Position numbers and translations under genes: made by a program. This document shows positions 41,549-59,341 of a stretch of DNA of 64,000 nucleotides, in pieces; the first letter of the stretch is position 1, and each line of letters begins with the position of its first letter. The stretch comes from Leptotrichia wadei (lineage in GTDB: Bacteria > Fusobacteriota > Fusobacteriia > Fusobacteriales > Leptotrichiaceae). A model generated the notes under the pieces. The model saw nothing but the letters and a program-made list of their open reading frames with translations. It was not told the origin of the DNA and did no database searches. The DNA lies in contig NZ_AP019841.1 of assembly GCF_007990445.1 (NCBI RefSeq), positions 248,001 through 312,000 of the forward strand, written 5' to 3'.

Positions 41549-42598
41549 TTATAAGTTATTTAGTATGTCTTTTATTAAATCATTGTCTTCTTTTAAGACA
41601 TGTGAATATATGTCTAAAGTAGTTGATACTTTTTCGTGTCCTAGTCTTCTTGAAAGTGATACTATATTAACACCTTTTGATAATAAGAAAGTTGCATGAG
41701 AATGTCGTAAATCGTGAACTCTAATTTTTTTTAAATTAGCTTTCCGTGCATAGAAATTTATATCATTTTCAAATTTATGCTTTGTAAATCCCTCAAATAA
41801 TCTAGTTTTTGGAGTAGGTTTATACAACATTTGGATAAAATTCTGTATCATATCAGTAACAAATTTAGGACAGTCAATAATTCTTTTAGATTTAGGAGTT
41901 TTCGGAGATGTTATAATATCCATTCTATTTATTCTCTGAAAACTTTTATTTATCCTTATCTTATGCTTTTCAAAATCTATATCTGATATTGTTAATGCTA
42001 AAAGTTCACCTATCCTGATACCAGTATAAAATAATATATTGAATCCAACTACAGACTCTTTTTTATGTTCAATTGCCTTTATAAATTGATTAAACTCCTC
42101 TATTGTCCATACATTCATTTCATCAGCATTCTTTTTCCCTATAGTTCCTGCGGCTAAACAAGGATTTTTTTTCAAATTATAAAATTTGACAGCATAATTC
42201 AATATAGCAACAAGTTGATTATTAATAGTTCTTAGATAAGTTTGAGCATAATTTTTTTCCATTAATTCATTTTGCCATTTTCTAACTAATAAAGGTGTTA
42301 TTTCTTTTATTTTATATTTTTGAAAAAATGGTAATATCTTTTTATTGATAAGATATTTTTTTGTTTCAATTGTATGTAATTTTAGCCTATTTTTTAAATC
42401 ATTCATATAAGATTTACACAAATTTTCAAATATTATTTCAGTATCAGATACAAAAGAGTTTATGTAATTTCTTTCATACTCCATTGCTTCTTGCTTTTTA
42501 TTAAATCCCATTTTTTTAACTTTTTTAGAAATTCCGTTTTCTTTTACATAAAAAGAAACATACCATTTTTTGCTTTTTTCATCCTTATATGCTGGCAT
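41549..42598 (-). CDS. int: tyrosine-type site-specific integrase
   Basis: Integrates and excises the prophage. N-terminal arm-binding region (MPAYKDEKSKKWYVSFYV), SAM-like core-binding domain (about 60-140), catalytic domain with Arg in TGIRIGELLAL near 200, HDLRHSHATFLL near 305 and Tyr in TTLDIYSHV near 335. 349 residues. I start at ATG 42598 (AGGA 11 bases upstream); GTG 42607 is closer to that SD but only 2 bases away. It overlaps nothing but lies 5 bases after the Xis-like gene. Confidence 0.95.
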   Translation of the reverse strand: MPAYKDEKSKKWYVSFYVKENGISKKVKKMGFNKKQEAMEYERNYINSFVSDTEIIFENLCKSYMNDLKNRLKLHTIETKKYLINKKILPFFQKYKIKEITPLLVRKWQNELMEKNYAQTYLRTINNQLVAILNYAVKFYNLKKNPCLAAGTIGKKNADEMNVWTIEEFNQFIKAIEHKKESVVGFNILFYTGIRIGELLALTISDIDFEKHKIRINKSFQRINRMDIITSPKTPKSKRIIDCPKFVTDMIQNFIQMLYKPTPKTRLFEGFTKHKFENDINFYARKANLKKIRVHDLRHSHATFLLSKGVNIVSLSRRLGHEKVSTTLDIYSHVLKEDNDLIKDILNNL

Positions 42599-42603
42599 AA
42601 AAA

Positions 42604-42780
42604 TCACTGTCCTATATTGTAACGTTCATTGAAGTATTTAGCATTTACTTTACCTTGCTGCGTTAAAAATCCTTTTTCTCTCAATTCTTCATTCAATTTT
42701 CTTATAATCTTATATGCCTTACCTTCTTTAACACCAATTATTTTCATAATATCATCACATTCATAAAACCATTTTTTCAT
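42604..42780 (-). CDS. small Xis/ICEBs1-excisionase-like HTH protein (58 aa)
   Basis: MKKWFYECDDIMKIIGVKEG then KAYKIIRKLNEELREKGFLT and an end YFNERYNIGQ; this follows the layout of small excisionase/HTH proteins found beside Gram-positive integrases (helix, GxxxGKAYKIIRxLN, wing). Starts at the second of two ATGs, four bases after GGAGG. Its place before int supports a role in excision. Too short for routine gene finding, so easily missed. Confidence 0.72.
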   Translation of the reverse strand: MKKWFYECDDIMKIIGVKEGKAYKIIRKLNEELREKGFLTQQGKVNAKYFNERYNIGQ

Positions 42781-46505: not shown

Positions 46506-46916
46506 CTAAATCAAATTATTTTTATACAAAATAGCAGCCATTTCATCACGTATCATATCGCATTCCTTATCAAACTCTTTTTCTTGATTATCTGTGTAAT
46601 TAGGATTTTTCTTTTCCCAGTCTTCCCAAGCCTTTGCGTCTTCGATATAGTCTAATACAAGGCTTTCGAACGGTTCAAAATTAAAATCTTTTTCCTCATA
46701 TCTGCAAACTATGAAATCGTGCAGTTCTTCTAACGAAATATATCGCAATTGATTTTCATATTTTGATTTAAATTCTTTAAATTCATTTTCTAAATGATTG
46801 CAGAAATCGTTGTATTCTTCTATCGCTTTGTCTTCTTCTTCACATAAACGATTCCAAGCCAAGTCTCTTGCTCTTTCTGCTTGTTCTGCAAATTTTAATG
46901 CTTCACTGTAGCTCAT
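46506..46916 (-). CDS. hypothetical acidic phage protein (136 aa), first gene of the leftward operon
   Basis: MSYSEALKFAEQAERARDLA then long acidic helices. I start at ATG 46916 (AGGAG nine bases upstream) rather than a TTG at 46925. First gene behind the PL promoter, about 80 bases from the expected transcript start. Unknown. Confidence 0.65.
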   Translation of the reverse strand: MSYSEALKFAEQAERARDLAWNRLCEEEDKAIEEYNDFCNHLENEFKEFKSKYENQLRYISLEELHDFIVCRYEEKDFNFEPFESLVLDYIEDAKAWEDWEKKNPNYTDNQEKEFDKECDMIRDEMAAILYKNNLI

Positions 46917-46938
46917 TTTTATCAACTCCTATTATTTC

Positions 46939-46959
46939 TCGTTTACATTTGACAACGAA
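46939..46959. promoter_or_regulatory. repressor operator site 1
   Basis: TCGTTTACATTTGACAACGAA, an imperfect dyad with half-sites TCGTT(G/T)(T/A). It lies downstream of the PL start in the leader of the leftward operon. Confidence 0.75.
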
Positions 46960-46998
46960 ATAAGTAAAAATTTTTTGTAAAATTTCATTTACATAGAT

Positions 46999-47027
46999 AT
47001 TATATATCATTTGTTGTTAAATGTCAA
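46999..47027 (-). promoter_or_regulatory. leftward early promoter PL
   Basis: Minus strand: perfect TTGACA (47022-47027), 17-base spacer, perfect TATAAT (46999-47004). The -35 box lies inside operator 2, which explains how the repressor would shut off integration and recombination genes. Confidence 0.88.
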
Positions 47028-47031
47028 CACT
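47011..47031. promoter_or_regulatory. repressor operator site 2 (over PL -35)
   Basis: TTGTTGTTAAATGTCAACACT; its reverse complement contains GTTGACATTTAACAAC, matching site 4 exactly over those 16 bases. Confidence 0.8.
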
Positions 47032-47040
47032 TTTTTGAAA

Positions 47041-47061
47041 AAATTATCAAATGACAACAAA
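47041..47061. promoter_or_regulatory. repressor operator site 3 (upstream of the repressor gene)
   Basis: AAATTATCAAATGACAACAAA aligns with sites 1 and 2 through ATGACAACAAA, weaker in the other half. It overlaps the -35 region of the repressor promoter and could serve autorepression. Confidence 0.6.
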
Positions 47062-47068
47062 AATATTG

Positions 47069-47074
47069 TATAAT
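47069..47074 (+). promoter_or_regulatory. -10 box of the repressor promoter
   Basis: TATAAT 24 bases before the repressor start; no -35 close to consensus at 16-18 bases, which fits a promoter needing activation by its own repressor. Confidence 0.55.
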
Positions 47075-47097
47075 TATAGAAAAAAGGGATGATACTT

Positions 47098-47547
47098 ATG
47101 TCAGATTTTAGAATAAAAGATGAACAATTAAAAGAATTAGGAGATTATTTAAAAAAAGTTAGAGAGAGTAAAGATTATTCGTATGGACAAGTAGCAGCAT
47201 ATACAAATTTGAATAAGAAGGAAATATTTATGCTTGAAAATGGACAAAAGAAAAAGCCTAATCCTTTTTATTTGAAGGCATTATCAGCCTTTTATAAAAT
47301 AGATTTGAGTAAGTTATATAAAATAATTGGATATATGGATAACGAAGGCGAAATGTCCGATGAAATAGAAGATTATAAAATTGATGACGAGATGTTAAAT
47401 TTGTTAAAATTATTAGATGTTAAAAGTCAAAAGAATATTTTAAATGAAATGGTAGAAAAAATTGAATATATAAAATTAAAAAATGGCGACTACAAGGAAG
47501 CGGAAGCATTGATACAAAAAACAAAAGAAAAAATAGATGAATTATAA
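47098..47547 (+). CDS. CI-like prophage repressor (HTH_3/XRE)
   Basis: MSDFRIKDEQLKELGDYLKK then an XRE-type helix-turn-helix, SYGQVAAYTNLNKKEIFMLE (about 26-45), and a C-terminal half that is helical and Lys-rich rather than a peptidase. No Ser-Lys LexA-like cleavage motif is seen, so release from lysogeny is more likely through the antirepressor at 54285 than through RecA. 149 residues. ATG 47098 has AAGGG nine bases upstream; ATG 47089 directly abuts it. Confidence 0.85.
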   Translation: MSDFRIKDEQLKELGDYLKKVRESKDYSYGQVAAYTNLNKKEIFMLENGQKKKPNPFYLKALSAFYKIDLSKLYKIIGYMDNEGEMSDEIEDYKIDDEMLNLLKLLDVKSQKNILNEMVEKIEYIKLKNGDYKEAEALIQKTKEKIDEL

Positions 47548-47565
47548 AGAAAGAGGTGGCTTAAA

Positions 47566-48543
47566 ATAACAGGAGATATAAGTTTAAGAATAGAAAATAT
47601 TGATTTAGAATTAGAAAAATCTAATAGATTATATACATTTAATAATAAAGAGTATAAGTTTATCGAAGAGATAGCATTAGAACATTATAGGGAAAAAGGA
47701 TATAACGGGATATTTACTCAGAATTTTTATTGGGCTCACATTTTTTCTTTTTTATTTTGGCAGGAAATATGGGATATTATTGATTTGAAATATCAATCTG
47801 ATAAATTTCCAAAATATATAAAAAAATCATTTGAATTAGAAAAAATACGGATAAAACAAGATATGCCATTTGATTTATTTACAGATGTTTTCTTAAAAAA
47901 TAGAGAAGAAATAATAGCTTACAAAATGCAACAAATTTTAGAAAATGATGCTGAAAAAATTCTAGAAGAAAATTATAATTTAGCAAAAAAACAAAGTTTC
48001 AAAAATAATAATAGAATTTTCAGAATGTTGGAGCGAGATATAGACAGATTTAAAATAGAAGATTTAAAACTTATATTTAAGTATTACAATATCGAAGATA
48101 TAGTAAGAGTGCTTTTATTTTATATGAATAATATTGCTCAAAATCGTTCTGGGTTTCCTGATTTGATGATTTTTAATGAAAACGAATTGAAATTTATTGA
48201 AGTAAAAGGACCAAATGATACAATAAAAGAACATCAAATTGAGAAGATTATGTTATTGAATCAAAATAATATAAAATCAGAAATTTTAACTATAAATCAT
48301 ACTGAACGAAAATTGAATAATCTTACTAAAAAAATAAAAGAAAATTCAGAAAGTATTATTATAAAATATCCTGAATCATTACCGACTTTTTTGGAAAAAT
48401 CAGAAAAACATAATTTAAATAGCTATTTGGAATATGGAGAAAACAACGGAATTAATATTTTTGCTTTTATAATTATAATTACTTTTATAATTGCATTTTT
48501 TCCATTTTATATATTATATTTAATATTCAAAAAAAAGAGATAG
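47566..48543 (+). CDS. VRR-NUC/FAN1-like nuclease with C-terminal membrane segment
   Basis: Virus-type replication-repair nuclease fold. The N-terminal part (LEHYREKGYNGIFTQNFYWA) resembles the region before the nuclease in FAN1-like proteins; the VRR-NUC core has GFPDLMIFNE near residue 195 and KFIEVKGPND near 210 (Asp...Glu-x-Lys). A strongly hydrophobic stretch near 295-318 followed by KKKR predicts a membrane anchor with the nuclease inside. The frame is open from 18 bases after the repressor stop; there is no ATG, GTG or TTG until 47785, which would cut off ~73 residues of evident coding sequence. AGGTGG lies six bases before ATA 47566, so I take that as start. 325 residues. Confidence 0.8.
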   Translation: MTGDISLRIENIDLELEKSNRLYTFNNKEYKFIEEIALEHYREKGYNGIFTQNFYWAHIFSFLFWQEIWDIIDLKYQSDKFPKYIKKSFELEKIRIKQDMPFDLFTDVFLKNREEIIAYKMQQILENDAEKILEENYNLAKKQSFKNNNRIFRMLERDIDRFKIEDLKLIFKYYNIEDIVRVLLFYMNNIAQNRSGFPDLMIFNENELKFIEVKGPNDTIKEHQIEKIMLLNQNNIKSEILTINHTERKLNNLTKKIKENSESIIIKYPESLPTFLEKSEKHNLNSYLEYGENNGINIFAFIIIITFIIAFFPFYILYLIFKKKR

Positions 48544-48553
48544 TAAATTTTTT

Positions 48554-48582
48554 AAGAGCTTTTAAAAAAGGCTCTTTTTTTT
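48554..48582 (+). terminator. terminator of the repressor-nuclease operon
   Basis: Stem AAGAGC / GCTCTT with 11-base loop and eight T. It closes a two-gene unit, repressor plus VRR-NUC. Confidence 0.85.
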
Positions 48583-48602
48583 GTTAAAATAAATTTTTTA
48601 TA

Positions 48603-48624
48603 TTCGTTGACATTTAACAACAGA
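48603..48624. promoter_or_regulatory. repressor operator site 4 (over the Cro-like promoter)
   Basis: TTCGTTGACATTTAACAACAGA; shares GTTGACATTTAACAAC with site 2 and covers the -35 box of the promoter below. Confidence 0.8.
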
Positions 48625-48635
48625 TGTGATATAGT
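48607..48635 (+). promoter_or_regulatory. rightward early promoter before the Cro-like gene
   Basis: Perfect TTGACA (48607-48612), 17 bases, TATAGT (48630-48635) with TGA extended -10. The operator covers its -35 box as at PL. Confidence 0.85.
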
Positions 48636-48652
48636 TTTAACGAGGTGATAAT

Positions 48653-48850
48653 ATGGCTAGAAAATATAAAAAATCAAATGAACACCCTGAATTTGCTAGA
48701 TTTAAATATTTGATAGAAAAGAATAAATTGACAATAGATGAATTTTCTAAAAAAATTGGGTGTTCAAGAAATGCAATTTATAATTTTTTTAAATGGGATA
48801 GGAAAAAACAAATCCAGCAAATTTTTAGAAAATTAAATTTTTTTGATTAA
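48653..48850 (+). CDS. small Cro-like HTH protein (65 aa)
   Basis: MARKYKKSNEHPEFARFKYL then an XRE helix-turn-helix LTIDEFSKKIGCSRNAIYNF and a basic tail. SD GAGGTG before ATG. Under an operator-controlled promoter and followed at once by operator site 5, it takes the Cro position, although a gene and terminator separate it from the repressor. Confidence 0.75.
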   Translation: MARKYKKSNEHPEFARFKYLIEKNKLTIDEFSKKIGCSRNAIYNFFKWDRKKQIQQIFRKLNFFD

Positions 48851-48872
48851 TTCGTTGTTAAAAGTAAACGAT
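48851..48872. promoter_or_regulatory. repressor operator site 5
   Basis: TTCGTTGTTAAAAGTAAACGAA-like; the best dyad of the five (TCGTTGT and TAAACGA as half-sites). It directly follows the Cro-like stop codon and precedes no rightward promoter I can identify. Confidence 0.7.
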
Positions 48873-48953
48873 TTAATTACTTGATTTTTTTAAAATAATA
48901 ATCAAGTTAATCAATTCAGCGATTTCTTTTAATTTTTTATCATTATTTTCCAT
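48873..48953 (-). CDS. 26-residue peptide gene, minus strand
   Basis: MENNDKKLKEIAELINLIII then LKKSSN: charged start, short hydrophobic middle. AAAGGAG eight bases before ATG and a promoter (TTGAAT, 17 bases, TAAAAT at 48986-49014) support expression. It runs against the Cro-like gene. No paired antisense RNA seen. Could be a small membrane peptide. Confidence 0.4.
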   Translation of the reverse strand: MENNDKKLKEIAELINLIIILKKSSN

Positions 48954-48985
48954 AATAATTACTCCTTTCGTTTAAAGATGTAATT

Positions 48986-49014
48986 ATTTTAATAATGATT
49001 AAATTACAATTCAA
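48986..49014 (-). promoter_or_regulatory. candidate promoter of the 26-residue peptide gene
   Basis: Minus strand TTGAAT (49009-49014), 17 bases, TAAAAT (48986-48991). Confidence 0.5.
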
Positions 49015-49031
49015 AAGAAAGGAGGTGTGAG

Positions 49032-49220
49032 ATGAAAATAAAAAAACTATGGATAAAGATTATATCCATAGTGGCTGAATTTTGGATTAATATACTGCTG
49101 TTTCATATACCTGTAAGATTTAAGAGGTTTTTCTTTGTAAATATTTACAAAATAGTGATAGCGAGTATATTAATCATTTTAGGAATTATATTGTATTTTA
49201 TTTTAAAATTCTTAATATAA
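49032..49220 (+). CDS. small membrane protein (62 aa)
   Basis: MKIKKLWIKIISIVAEFWIN, a basic middle (IPVRFKRFFF) and a second hydrophobic stretch IVIASILIILGIILYFILKF. Two membrane segments. Perfect AAAGGAGGTG before ATG. Unknown. Confidence 0.6.
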   Translation: MKIKKLWIKIISIVAEFWINILLFHIPVRFKRFFFVNIYKIVIASILIILGIILYFILKFLI

Positions 49221-49290: not shown

Positions 49291-49431
49291 ATGAAAGATA
49301 TAATAGCATTGATAATTTCTATGATAATTTACCATTTTTTTCAGGAAAAAATTAAAAAGATAGTGATGTATTCACTACCTTTTGCAATATTATATTTATT
49401 GATTAAATCAATTTTGTACGTTACTTTTTAG
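49291..49431 (+). CDS. small membrane protein (46 aa)
   Basis: MKDIIALIISMIIYHFFQEK then IVMYSLPFAILYLLIKSILY: two membrane segments with a basic loop. GGGAG before ATG. Overlaps the end of the convergent gene by 11 bases. Unknown. Confidence 0.5.
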   Translation: MKDIIALIISMIIYHFFQEKIKKIVMYSLPFAILYLLIKSILYVTF

Positions 49432-50110
49432 AAAGTTTTTTAAAAATAAAAGAAATAAAAGCAGGAGTTCCAATAGCAAAAGTAAGTTCAGCAAATTTCT
49501 TTGGAGTTTTATATTCCAAAACTATAACACCAAAAGATTTTAAAACTTCAACAATCCATTTGAGAACTTCTAATAAAACAGGCTCCAAAGCAGTAACAAA
49601 TGTCGTATATGGTGCAAGCCAAAGAAAAATATAACTTGCAAATCCTAAATAAACAGAAATATTTTCAGGAATTTCCAAGTTTTGAAATATCCTGATATAT
49701 TCATTTAATCGAGGTTTCAAAAAAATAACCGGAAAATTTTCGATAACAACTTCAAATTCCTCTTCTTGAGTAGAATTGTAAGCGTCAATAGCGGAATTTA
49801 TAACATTATTCCAGTAATTATGATTTTTTAGATAAACTTCAGATAAAATTTTAAGATTTGAACTTATGGATTCAAATTGTCTGTGAATATCAGGAAAATT
49901 AATTTGTTTTGCCAAGATGTCTAGATTAGTCAAATTAGCAAAACTCATTTGTTGATTGATTAAATTAACACTTTGGAATGCTGAATTATTAATAGCTTCT
50001 TGTAATTTTTGAACATTATTCATTGCTAATTGGATTCTTTGAATATTAGGATTATTCATCAATCTTTGAGCAGCTTCCATAGAAGCAAACAAATTTTTAG
50101 GAATAAGCAT
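49421..50110 (-). CDS. hypothetical lysogenic-conversion candidate (229 aa)
   Basis: N-terminal 130 residues are polar and helical with IQLAMNNVQKLQEAINNSAF; the C-terminal third holds two or three hydrophobic segments (SVYLGFASYIFLWLAPYTTF, LLEVLKWIVEVLKSFGVIVL, FAIGTPAFISFIF). Start ATG 50110 behind AAAGGAGGTG. It lies alone on the minus strand amid plus-strand early genes, as moron genes do. Not recognised. Confidence 0.65.
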   Translation of the reverse strand: MLIPKNLFASMEAAQRLMNNPNIQRIQLAMNNVQKLQEAINNSAFQSVNLINQQMSFANLTNLDILAKQINFPDIHRQFESISSNLKILSEVYLKNHNYWNNVINSAIDAYNSTQEEEFEVVIENFPVIFLKPRLNEYIRIFQNLEIPENISVYLGFASYIFLWLAPYTTFVTALEPVLLEVLKWIVEVLKSFGVIVLEYKTPKKFAELTFAIGTPAFISFIFKKLSKK

Positions 50111-50202
50111 AATAACACCTCCTTTCATGAGAATTTGATTTTATTTGGCGATATTATTATAACTCAAAAGGGGGCAAAAAAGAAATAAGGGAGGTGGGAG
50201 AA

Positions 50203-53787: not shown

Positions 53788-54285
53788 ATGGAAGCATTGA
53801 AAAAGTTTGATATGGATGAACTACTAAAAAGACAAGCGATGTTGGATAAGAAATTTGATGAAAAGAAAACTTTAAGGGAAAGAACACAAATAAGAACGTT
53901 TGTCGCTTTTATTGCTGAATTAGGAGAACTAACTCAAGAACTCAAAAGTGAATGGAATTATTGGAAAAATAACACAGAAAAAATAAATAAAAGAAAAGTT
54001 TTGGAAGAGCTATCGGATTGTCTTCATTTTTACTTGAGTTTTATCAATCAAAGTATATTTAGGAATCCAGGAAACGAAAGTGTCAAGTATCACAAAAGGT
54101 ATATCGAAAATCTAGAAGTAGCTTTAATATTTTTGTCAAAATTTTCAGGGGAAAAAGAAAATAAAATAATAGCAGCAATGCTAATCATAGCTGAATATGT
54201 AGGAGCAACAGAAGATGAGTTTTTACAAGTTCATCACGAGAAATGGCTTAAAAATATGAGGGAGAGAACTAAGGAGGAATATTAA
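53788..54285 (+). CDS. dimeric dUTPase (dUTPase_2/MazG fold)
   Basis: Hydrolyses dUTP to keep uracil out of phage DNA. FVAFIAELGELTQELKSEWN near residue 40 and VLEELSDCLHFYLSFINQ near 75 give the ExxE...ExxD metal sites. 165 residues. One base overlap with the next gene's ATG. Confidence 0.87.
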   Translation: MEALKKFDMDELLKRQAMLDKKFDEKKTLRERTQIRTFVAFIAELGELTQELKSEWNYWKNNTEKINKRKVLEELSDCLHFYLSFINQSIFRNPGNESVKYHKRYIENLEVALIFLSKFSGEKENKIIAAMLIIAEYVGATEDEFLQVHHEKWLKNMRERTKEEY

Positions 54286-55052
54286 TGAATGAATTGATAA
54301 CAATAGAAAAAGTAAGAGGGTATGTTGGAGAAAATGGAACAATATTTTTAAATTTAGAAGATGTTGCAAGAGGATTAGGATTTGTTGAAAATTCTAAAAG
54401 TGGAAATATAACAGTTAGATGGAGAACTGTTAGAGATTATTTGAAAGAATTTAAAGTCATCGCAGAAAGTTGCGATGGAAAAGGAAGTGAAAAATTACCT
54501 GAATTTATACCTGAAAATATCTTTTATAAATTATGTATGAAAGCAAATAATCAACTTGCTAGAGATTTTCAGGATAAAGTTGCTGATGAAATTTTACCAG
54601 CAATAAGAAAAACAAAAATGTATGCAACAGAAGAACTTTTGAATAATCCTGATTTAGCTATTCAGGCTTTTATGAAACTTAAAAAAGAAATGGAAAAAAG
54701 AAAAGAGTTGGAAAATACAATTGCAAAGCAACAACCAAAAATAGAGTTTTACGATGCAGTGGCAGGAAGTGATACAACAGCAGATATGAAAACAGTAGCA
54801 AATGTATTAAATTTTAAAGGTGTAGGCAGAAACAACTTATTTGAAATTTTGAGAAATGAAAGTATTTTACAAAACGATAACAGACCGTATCAAAAATATA
54901 TAGACGCTGGCTGGTTCAAAATGATAGAAAGCAAATGGAACAACCAAAAGACAGGAGATGTTGAAATTAATTTTAAAACAGTTGTATATCAAAAAGGGAT
55001 TGAGAAAATATCAAATATACTGAAAAAATTAGGATATACAAAAGTAAGTTAG
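54285..55052 (+). CDS. phage antirepressor (BRO-like N-terminus, ANT/KilA-C C-terminus)
   Basis: N-terminal BRO-N-like domain (LNLEDVARGLGFVENSK, IPENIFYKLCMKANNQLARDFQ) and C-terminal antirepressor domain from about 140 (KIEFYDAVAGSDTTADMKTV, NNLFEILRNESIL). 255 residues. It is the best candidate to oppose the CI-like repressor, which lacks a cleavable domain. Confidence 0.87.
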   Translation: MNELITIEKVRGYVGENGTIFLNLEDVARGLGFVENSKSGNITVRWRTVRDYLKEFKVIAESCDGKGSEKLPEFIPENIFYKLCMKANNQLARDFQDKVADEILPAIRKTKMYATEELLNNPDLAIQAFMKLKKEMEKRKELENTIAKQQPKIEFYDAVAGSDTTADMKTVANVLNFKGVGRNNLFEILRNESILQNDNRPYQKYIDAGWFKMIESKWNNQKTGDVEINFKTVVYQKGIEKISNILKKLGYTKVS

Positions 55053-55080: not shown

Positions 55081-55160
55081 ATGACTGTGAAAAATATGAT
55101 AAAAAAAACTTTACTTTATAATATAAAAATGATACTATTTATACAATAGGAGTGAGAAAA

Positions 55161-56402
55161 ATGAATAAGAAGTATGAAAATTTAGAAAAAATATATTATA
55201 AAGGGAAAAATATTGATAAAGAATATGAAAAAAGAACAAAAAGCAGTTCAACTATTGTTACAGATTTAATGATTTATTCTGAATACAAAAAACAGCAAGT
55301 GCCATTATTTTTTAAAGTTTTACCAAAACACTTTAAATTACAGGAAGAAATAGGTAAAAAAAGTAAAAAGATAGAATTAAAATTTCAGAAATTGACGACT
55401 TTAATGGCGGATTATACGGTAAATAAGTTGTTTGTAAATGAAATTCTTTATACAAATAAAGTTGAGGGGATTCATTCTAGCAAGAAAGCTATTTATTCAG
55501 AATTGCAAAATAAAAAGAATGAAAAAAAATATAATAAAAAAGAAAAATTGGTAGGAATTGTTAAAAAATATGAAAATATCTTAAAAAATAAAGAAGAAAA
55601 AATTGAAAATAAGGAAGACTTCAGAAAAATATACGATAAGTTATTTATCGACTTTTTAGATAACGATAACTATAAATTAGATGGAGAAATTTTTAGAAAA
55701 GACGGTGTTGATGTAAAAAATGACACAATGGAAGTTATTCATCGTGGAATTTTGGGAGAAGAAAATATACAAAAAGAAGTCGAAAAAGTAATAAAGTTTT
55801 TAAATAATGAAGAAATTCCATCATTAATAAAAATTTCAATAATACATTTTTTTGTTGAATATATTCATCCGTTCTATGATGGGAATGGCCGTTTTGGAAG
55901 ATACTTATTATCAATGAATTTAGCTAAATACGTAGGAAAGTACACAGCTTTATCAATTTCATATATAATTGCACAAAACAAAATGAAGTATTATAAATCA
56001 TTTAAAGAAGTCGAAAGTAAATATAATTTAGGAGAGATAACTTTTTTTGTTGAAAATATTTTGGAAAATATAATCGAAGGGCAAAATTCAATTTTGGAGT
56101 TAGTAGAAAAAACAATTGAAAAAGCAGAGTACATGAATAAAATTTGTAAAGAGATAGAAGAAGAAAGAAAAGATTTGAAAGAAATAGAAATACAAATACT
56201 GTATATCTATATTCAAGATTATCTATTCAACGGATTCGAAAAAATAAAAAATAAAGATATAGCAAAAATACCAAACTTGAACAAAACCCAACAAACGATA
56301 AACAAATATACAAAAAAATTAGAAGAAAAAGGATTTGTAAAAAAAGTTTCTGAACGACCTTTAAGATATGAAATAGAAAATCGGTTAGCAGAAAAATTTT
56401 AA
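55161..56402 (+). CDS. Fic-domain protein
   Basis: Fic motif HPFYDGNGRFGR near residue 236 is complete with catalytic His. An inhibitory helix TNKVEG near 97 fits the (S/T)xxxE(G/N) rule with the inhibitory Glu in the N-terminal part (class II), so activity is likely self-restrained. A C-terminal winged helix (KIPNLNKTQQTINKYTKKLE, ~375-400) suggests DNA binding. 413 residues. Fic enzymes transfer AMP or related groups to proteins; the target is unknown. Isolated between antirepressor and HNH genes with its own terminator, so probably a moron. ATG 55161 follows AGGAG. Confidence 0.88.
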   Translation: MNKKYENLEKIYYKGKNIDKEYEKRTKSSSTIVTDLMIYSEYKKQQVPLFFKVLPKHFKLQEEIGKKSKKIELKFQKLTTLMADYTVNKLFVNEILYTNKVEGIHSSKKAIYSELQNKKNEKKYNKKEKLVGIVKKYENILKNKEEKIENKEDFRKIYDKLFIDFLDNDNYKLDGEIFRKDGVDVKNDTMEVIHRGILGEENIQKEVEKVIKFLNNEEIPSLIKISIIHFFVEYIHPFYDGNGRFGRYLLSMNLAKYVGKYTALSISYIIAQNKMKYYKSFKEVESKYNLGEITFFVENILENIIEGQNSILELVEKTIEKAEYMNKICKEIEEERKDLKEIEIQILYIYIQDYLFNGFEKIKNKDIAKIPNLNKTQQTINKYTKKLEEKGFVKKVSERPLRYEIENRLAEKF

Positions 56403-58508: not shown

Positions 58509-58562
58509 ATGGATAGTAGAATTTTAATTGAAAATCTAAATTTTTATGAGGTGATAATATGA
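58509..58562 (+). CDS. 17-codon leader peptide upstream of the TIR gene
   Basis: ATG at 58509 behind TAGGAGG; reads MDSRILIENLNFYEVII and stops in an ATGA overlap with the TIR start. Translation of the leader would pass across the TIR ribosome site GAGGTG, giving translational coupling. Its peptide may not matter in itself. Confidence 0.55.
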   Translation: MDSRILIENLNFYEVII

Positions 58563-59341
58563 TATTTATAAGTCATAATCATAAAGATAAGAAAATTATT
58601 GAACCTTTTGCAAACCGTCTTTCTGATGTATATGGAAAAGATAATGTGTTTTATGATAGCTGGTCTATCCAACCTGGAGACGGTATAATTGATAAAATGA
58701 ATAAAGGATTATCATCAATTAATTATTTTTTCTTTTTTGTGTCTGATAATAGTTTGAAAAGTGATATGGTTAAACTTGAATGGCAAAATGCTTTAATTAC
58801 TTCATTAAGTGATGACATAAAATTTATTCCAGTCAGATTGGATCAAAGCGAAATGCCAGCAATATTAAAACAGATATTATATTTAGATGTTTTTTCAAAT
58901 GGATTTGAAACTGTATTGAGACAGATGATTGATGTGATTGACGGGAATAATACTTATCATGGGGAAAAACGAACATACGAAAATGTAAATTCAAAAATCA
59001 AGGTATTAAATAAGAATGAAATTGAAATTGAAATTTTTGCAACTACATATATGGAACCAATTGGTAAATATATTATTTTGACATTAAATGAAGAAGAAGA
59101 ATTAAAAGTAGAATGTCCTAAGGAAGCAATGTTTGGAAATGGTTTTTTAAAAGGGCTAGAAATAGAAAGAAATCTTGCGAAAGAAACAGTAAACGGCGTA
59201 ATTATATCATTACATAGACCATTAACTCCTGGATTTCCGTTGAGAATAATAATTAAATCTGACACAGAAATAATTTTTAGAGGAATTATGAAAGCAATAT
59301 CTGAAGAAAAAATTGTAGGTATTCCAACAGAAGTAATTTAA
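58559..59341 (+). CDS. TIR-domain protein
   Basis: N-terminal TIR fold (residues 1-130): MIFISHNHKDKKIIEPFA, DNVFYDSWSIQPGD, and SDMVKLEWQNAL with Glu74 in the place of the catalytic NAD-cleaving Glu. Residues ~135-260 form an unrecognised beta-rich domain (EIEIEIFATTYMEPIGKYII, GFPLRIIIKSDTEIIFRG). 260 residues. TIR proteins of this kind act as NADases in anti-phage defence or signalling. It has its own promoter, leader and terminator, so it is a self-contained moron unit. Confidence 0.87.
   Translation: MIFISHNHKDKKIIEPFANRLSDVYGKDNVFYDSWSIQPGDGIIDKMNKGLSSINYFFFFVSDNSLKSDMVKLEWQNALITSLSDDIKFIPVRLDQSEMPAILKQILYLDVFSNGFETVLRQMIDVIDGNNTYHGEKRTYENVNSKIKVLNKNEIEIEIFATTYMEPIGKYIILTLNEEEELKVECPKEAMFGNGFLKGLEIERNLAKETVNGVIISLHRPLTPGFPLRIIIKSDTEIIFRGIMKAISEEKIVGIPTEVI

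Follow-up and report, generated by a model that had tools for sequence, protein, structure and literature searches.

A prophage in the window (the whole 64-kb stretch of DNA analysed here) encodes, just 3' of its repressor, a FAN1-type VRR-NUC nuclease that ends in a predicted membrane helix. We read this as a gene for lysogenic conversion that occupies the rex-like slot of the prophage immunity cassette; its product would be tethered to the inner membrane and would exclude phages. The chances of this reading are about even. The parts of it that are read from the sequence are the nuclease domain, the membrane segment, the unit with the repressor, the flanking operators, the recurrence of the slot and the exchange of the block. 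The features are as follows.

46892..49037, no strand: immunity block common to the prophage of another species, 99.67% identical with 7 differences (blastn of the window against L015)
46939..46959, no strand: operator-like site TCGTTTACATTTGACAACGAA
46999..47027, minus strand: leftward promoter-like TTGACA-17-TATAAT (PL equivalent), 12/12 consensus, overlapped by the operator at 47010..47030
47010..47030, no strand: operator-like site TTTGTTGTTAAATGTCAACAC, 19/20 match to the right-hand site (0/500 shuffles)
47089..47547, plus strand: HTH_3 (CI-type) repressor, 152 aa, without S24 domain (Pfam 2.7e-8)
47553..47559, plus strand: Shine-Dalgarno-like GAGGTGG, 6 bases 5' of ATA 47566, read from the sequence
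47566..48543, plus strand: open frame of 325 codons counted from ATA, for a VRR-NUC nuclease of FAN1 type with a membrane helix at its C-terminus
47719..47721, plus strand: Gln codon (residue 52) aligned with the metal ligand E834 of FAN1 / E386 of PaFAN1 (alignment; PMC4348246)
48160..48207, plus strand: catalytic D199, E212 and K214 (PD...EVK; translation, alignment)
48457..48525, plus strand: hydrophobic membrane segment, residues 298-320, then KKKR (hydropathy, relatives)
48554..48576, plus strand: intrinsic terminator (hairpin plus T) 3' of the nuclease
48604..48624, no strand: operator-like site TCGTTGACATTTAACAACAGA
48607..48635, plus strand: rightward promoter-like TTGACA-17-TATAGT (PR equivalent), 11/12 matches
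48653..48850, plus strand: small HTH protein, 65 aa, Cro-like by position (weak HTH matches, 0.0007-0.001)
48851..48871, no strand: operator-like site TTCGTTGTTAAAAGTAAACGA

The VRR_NUC domain (PF08774) is found over residues 168-241 (Pfam E 9.4e-13; 48.7 bits against a curated cut-off of 23.8), and the catalytic residues of the PD...(D/E)XK motif are present as D199 in GFPD and E212 and K214 in EVK. Human FAN1 is matched over residues 33-228 (phmmer against solved structures, E 1e-6) and Vibrio FAN1 over residues 33-245 (tblastn against plasmid records, 8e-12), implying that the similarity covers the nuclease half of FAN1, more than the VRR-NUC core; both the region before the helical insertion and the core are present. 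In a Foldseek search the two-sequence AlphaFold model of the window protein, a model of modest confidence (pTM 0.53), matches FAN1 at 3.4e-6 over ~262 aligned columns, and FAN1 structures are the only ones found at E<=1e-3 for this model and for that of a relative (pTM 0.63). An earlier note on this DNA had called the protein a FAN1/VRR-NUC-type nuclease with GFPD...EVK, and the Pfam match, the FAN1 alignments and the fold match all bear this out. SAP and TPR domains have no Pfam match in the window protein, in which only 32 residues precede the FAN1 match.

The metal-site residues of FAN1 are E834, D960, E975 and K977 in the human enzyme and E386, D507, E522 and K524 in PaFAN1 (PMC4348246). 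D199, E212 and K214 correspond to the last three of these. The position of E834 is occupied by Gln52 (FTQN), compared with YTEN in the relative in viral contig L018 and FSEN or FTEN in bacterial FAN1-type proteins. Three of the four residues (D, E and K) are kept, and full catalytic competence is not supported.

The nuclease frame opens 18 bases 3' of the repressor TAA, in the same frame as the repressor. The spacing given in the earlier note for a start at 47566 is correct, but the codon there is ATA, and ATG, GTG and TTG are absent from the frame until TTG 47785 (codon 74). Residues 7-68 are conserved in the relative (39% identity, L003/L018); therefore these codons are coding and translation must begin upstream of codon 74. 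A start at TTG 47785, as in the mechanical ORF, was rejected since it would remove these residues, which are also aligned with FAN1. Translation most likely begins at ATA 47566. This ATA is not a sequencing error, because it is identical in a second genome (G013). A chance open frame is excluded, as none of 2000 composition-matched sequences is open for 325 codons, and homology to FAN1 along most of the frame also speaks against it; all 325 codons stay open at 21% G+C in both genomes. A readthrough fusion of repressor and nuclease (same frame, TAA between them) may occur in the window but is not a family feature, as in G021 a terminator-like hairpin precedes the copy, which is read in a different frame. 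ATA and similar codons serve as rare starts, and expression from an ATA start is expected to be weak. With its ATA start and with Gln in place of the fourth metal ligand, the window allele probably yields little product, a product of low activity, or both, and the G020 relative (ATG, Glu) is the better representative of the family.

No terminator was found between the repressor and nuclease genes. The single hairpin-plus-T at 48554-48576 agrees with the earlier claim that the nuclease shares its terminator with the repressor. The four operator-like sites are the only places in the 64 kb with a match of at least 16/21 to the site at 46939. The PR-like promoter overlaps the operator at 48604-48624 and faces the small HTH gene at 48653-48850. 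Judged by these predicted signals, repressor and nuclease are enclosed by PL-like and PR-like operator-promoters, like lambda cI-rexAB. Operator pairs also bracket repressor and cargo in L012, L036 and L037 (19-20/20 bases, 0/500 shuffles each); the pair in L014 is weak (26/500 shuffles). The operon layout, the terminator and the flanking operators fit a Rex-type cargo predicted to be co-transcribed with the repressor. Since the nuclease lies in an operator-bracketed repressor operon, its gene would most naturally be transcribed in the lysogen. To this extent the layout supports the claim that the nuclease is made in the lysogen; efficient expression is unsupported given the ATA start.

Besides the window's own genome, four of 98 genomes of the phylum gave matches (G013, G020, G021 and G008). 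Relatives with recognisable nuclease sequence all lie in lysogeny modules 3' of a repressor. The nuclease-repressor link recurs in three modules. In G013, another species of the genus, the block common with the window is 2.1 kb long, whereas the rest of the G013 prophage is ~74-95% alike or unmatched, indicating that the immunity block and the nuclease moved as a unit. The nuclease genes of the two genomes have three differences, S6N and two silent changes. G020, which belongs to another genus, has an intact homologue of 270 residues (L012:12559-13371; 36% identical) with an ATG start, the Glu ligand and a membrane helix. It is found in a cargo run 3' of an S24-type repressor, just 5' of a small HTH gene, and the same protein is encoded in L018. 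In G021 an S24 repressor is followed by the terminator-like hairpin and then by a broken copy with frame changes, which lacks the catalytic core and keeps the membrane tail. Because this relic lies behind the hairpin, strict co-transcription is not universal. In other prophages the cargo of the slot is varied and often membrane-bound, including M78 (IrrE-like) peptidases and membrane proteins.

The cargo gene just 5' of the nuclease exists as two ORFs in L018 (3540-3994) and as a single ORF in G020 (L012:12100-12555). In different genera, cargo proteins of ~270-290 residues without a Pfam family, apparently related to each other, are encoded at L012:11159-12034 and L037:7479-8294, in each case after an HTH gene that lies 3' of an S24-type repressor. 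A Rep_3 initiator and a ParA-like gene (L013:2296-3883) are present on the contig of the broken nuclease copy, so this contig may be a plasmid or phage-plasmid.

The C-terminal segment has a best 19-residue Kyte-Doolittle mean of 2.78, against 0.95 as the best elsewhere in the protein, and residues ~298-320 are modelled as a single helix. The strongly hydrophobic segment followed by KKKR that the earlier note described is confirmed, and a predicted membrane segment is also present in relatives. With a single crossing and the nuclease on the cytoplasmic side, KKKR would end up in the periplasm, where the positive-inside rule does not favour it; its position behind the helix is hard to square with a cytoplasmic nuclease. 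A re-entrant segment would reconcile the two. The membrane tail is common to the nuclease and to cargo proteins of other lysogeny modules. In G008 a 119-residue cargo protein, 3' of an S24-type repressor and a bPH_1 gene, matches the nuclease only in this tail (54% over 35 residues), and a relative of it is found in a repressor module of G014. For this reason the anchor looks like an exchangeable module. L014:9985-10344 and L038:8123-8515 encode small basic proteins with a nuclease-like C-terminal membrane tail, as repressor-linked cargo of two other prophages; these products are candidates for exclusion proteins.

Homologues of the window protein or of its relative were not matched in 50,697 phage records, and searches of phages, genome_contigs and viral_contigs gave no direct homologue of the window protein. 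In an alignment-based scan of IMG/VR the FAN1-type form was found only in L018; otherwise there were standalone VRR-NUC cores without a membrane segment. The phage and contig scans used a peptide prefilter and the IMG/VR scan was pattern-limited, so that absence from them is not proof. The viral structure library gave standalone VRR-NUC cores only, none at E<=1e-3. Outside this family no FAN1-type protein with a membrane segment was found in the phage records, the IMG/VR scan or the viral structure library, and no PADLOC defence family matches the nuclease. Other VRR_NUC matches in the genus differ in layout: the one in G012 is part of a protein of 680 residues that resembles a restriction-modification methylase and is followed by an HsdS-like gene, and that at G013:C4 (L017) is a standalone phage VRR-NUC. 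A match in G014 is weak and below the cut-off.

FAN1 (human and PaFAN1; the KIAA1018 clade of VRR-NUC) is the closest known protein by sequence and fold, with a common core, the preceding strand and the long helical insertion. The window protein differs from it in lacking SAP and TPR, in its C-terminal membrane helix, in Gln at the E834/E386 position and in being encoded in a prophage immunity cassette. The FAN1 helical insertion sets FAN1 apart from the dimeric phage VRR-NUC resolvases (PMC4103454). Standalone phage VRR-NUC proteins (psNUC, stNUC and L017 in G013) have the same catalytic core, but they are dimeric junction resolvases of ~100 residues that lack the helical insertion and the membrane segment and are encoded among replication genes. 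The window protein, with 325 residues, a long insertion and a membrane helix, is not of this core-only kind. Lambda RexAB and its relatives (RexABpp, Sbash and CarolAnn) are lysogen-expressed exclusion cargo 3' of CI and include a membrane protein. A RexA/RexB pair is absent from the window operon, which has no second cargo gene for a RexA-like sensor and a RexB-like effector; nuclease and anchor are joined in one protein. Ltp of Streptococcus thermophilus phage TP-J34 is a membrane-tethered superinfection exclusion protein of the lysogeny module, made in the prophage state (PMC3952083). Unlike the window protein it is an extracellular lipoprotein that blocks injection, not a nuclease.

SNIPE (PD-lambda-1; Nature 2026) is a GIY-YIG/DUF4041 nuclease bound to the membrane; it cleaves phage DNA while this is being injected, and its membrane segment keeps the nuclease off the chromosome (PMC13190303). 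It resembles the window protein in joining a nuclease and one membrane segment in a single protein, and the proposed job is the same. The N-terminal membrane segment, DUF4041 and GIY-YIG nuclease of SNIPE are all absent from the window protein, which has no Pfam or PADLOC match to GIY-YIG or DUF4041. The two show no visible common ancestry in sequence, and their likeness would be convergence at most.

In the proposed mechanism the repressor promoter would drive production of the nuclease in the lysogen, and the protein would sit on the inner membrane with its catalytic part in the cytoplasm. There it would cleave incoming DNA at ends, flaps or branches as this passes the membrane, and phages that escape the repressor would be excluded. 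As with SNIPE, the tether would protect the chromosome. By analogy, attack of a membrane-held nuclease on entering DNA is plausible, because SNIPE does exactly so (PMC13190303). A membrane-anchored VRR-NUC protein was not found in literature searches, in line with the earlier claim of novelty for this form; the SNIPE precedent makes the mechanism less new than claimed. The VRR_NUC/FAN1 fold, the repressor-linked relatives, the exchange of the cassette, the operator pairs, the common tail and the varied cargo of the slot argue for exclusion, as do the SNIPE (PMC13190303) and Ltp (PMC3952083) precedents. Against it are the lack of a canonical start, Gln at the E834 position, the absence of SAP and TPR, the placement of KKKR, the lack of a PADLOC match, the G021 hairpin before the relic and the small number of relatives.

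Alternatively, the window copy may be decaying, having lost its start codon and an active-site acid and giving little or no protein. This is the main rival, with a real but minor chance of being correct, and it is compatible with exclusion at the level of the family, which may have been functional. Neither genome has ATG, GTG or TTG before codon 74, Gln is at the E834 position, and the G021 relative is already broken (frameshifts, core missing), implying that the family is dispensable. Decay is harder to reconcile with a frame whose 325 codons have stayed open at 21% G+C in both genomes, which differ there by one amino-acid and two silent changes, with the kept D, E and K of the core and with a well-spaced Shine-Dalgarno sequence 5' of ATA, a codon known with similar ones as a rare start.

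Two other functions are less probable. The nuclease may be an abortive-infection effector, inactive at the membrane until phage attack, when it would cut host and phage DNA and the infected cell would die. The rex-like position is that of the abortive RexAB and RexABpp (PMC12894663), and VRR-NUC has been recruited as an antibacterial effector, the bactericidal TseV (PMC9635880). We consider this unlikely, as the window operon has no sensor partner and the tethered nuclease SNIPE gives direct defence (PMC13190303). Less likely again is a role in phage housekeeping or recombination, in which the enzyme would process flaps or junctions as the standalone enzymes do. VRR-NUC proteins resolve Holliday junctions or cut flaps (PMC4103454), and RecT- and YqaJ/RecE-type recombination genes are found among the leftward genes of the prophage. 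The nuclease gene, however, lies in the lysogenic unit away from the lytic replication genes, RusA is already encoded in the same prophage, and the membrane segment and FAN1-type helical insertion are unlike the ~100-residue standalone enzymes such as L017.

Beyond phage exclusion as such, we tentatively suggest, with less confidence than the exclusion reading itself, that the family is a further class of membrane-tethered entry nuclease, the second to have evolved and independent of the first. In this class a FAN1-type nuclease with an exchangeable C-terminal anchor would occupy the rex slot, be swapped together with immunity specificity and cut superinfecting DNA at the inner membrane. If this is true, membrane tethering as a way to tell entering from chromosomal DNA arose at least twice, in bacterial defence (SNIPE) and in prophage exclusion, from nucleases of unrelated fold, and exclusion drew on a family of DNA-repair nucleases. 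The rex-like slot between operators with interchangeable cargo is a simple route to further exclusion genes in these AT-rich prophages.

The prophage has its left end near the integrase (41549-42607, minus strand) and its right end beyond the 64-kb window. Other genes in it are also of interest. At 49421-50128 (minus strand), between the lysogeny and early regions, is a 235-residue protein with a hydrophobic C-terminal region and no significant family match. A Fic/DOC protein with a winged-helix C-terminus (55152-56402, plus strand; PADLOC SoFic 3.7e-37) adjoins the KilAC/BRO antirepressor at 54285-55052. A TIR-domain protein just 5' of the packaging genes (58559-59341, plus strand; Pfam TIR_2 7.4e-23; PADLOC TIR-type best 2.2e-9) is a possible second defence gene of the prophage.
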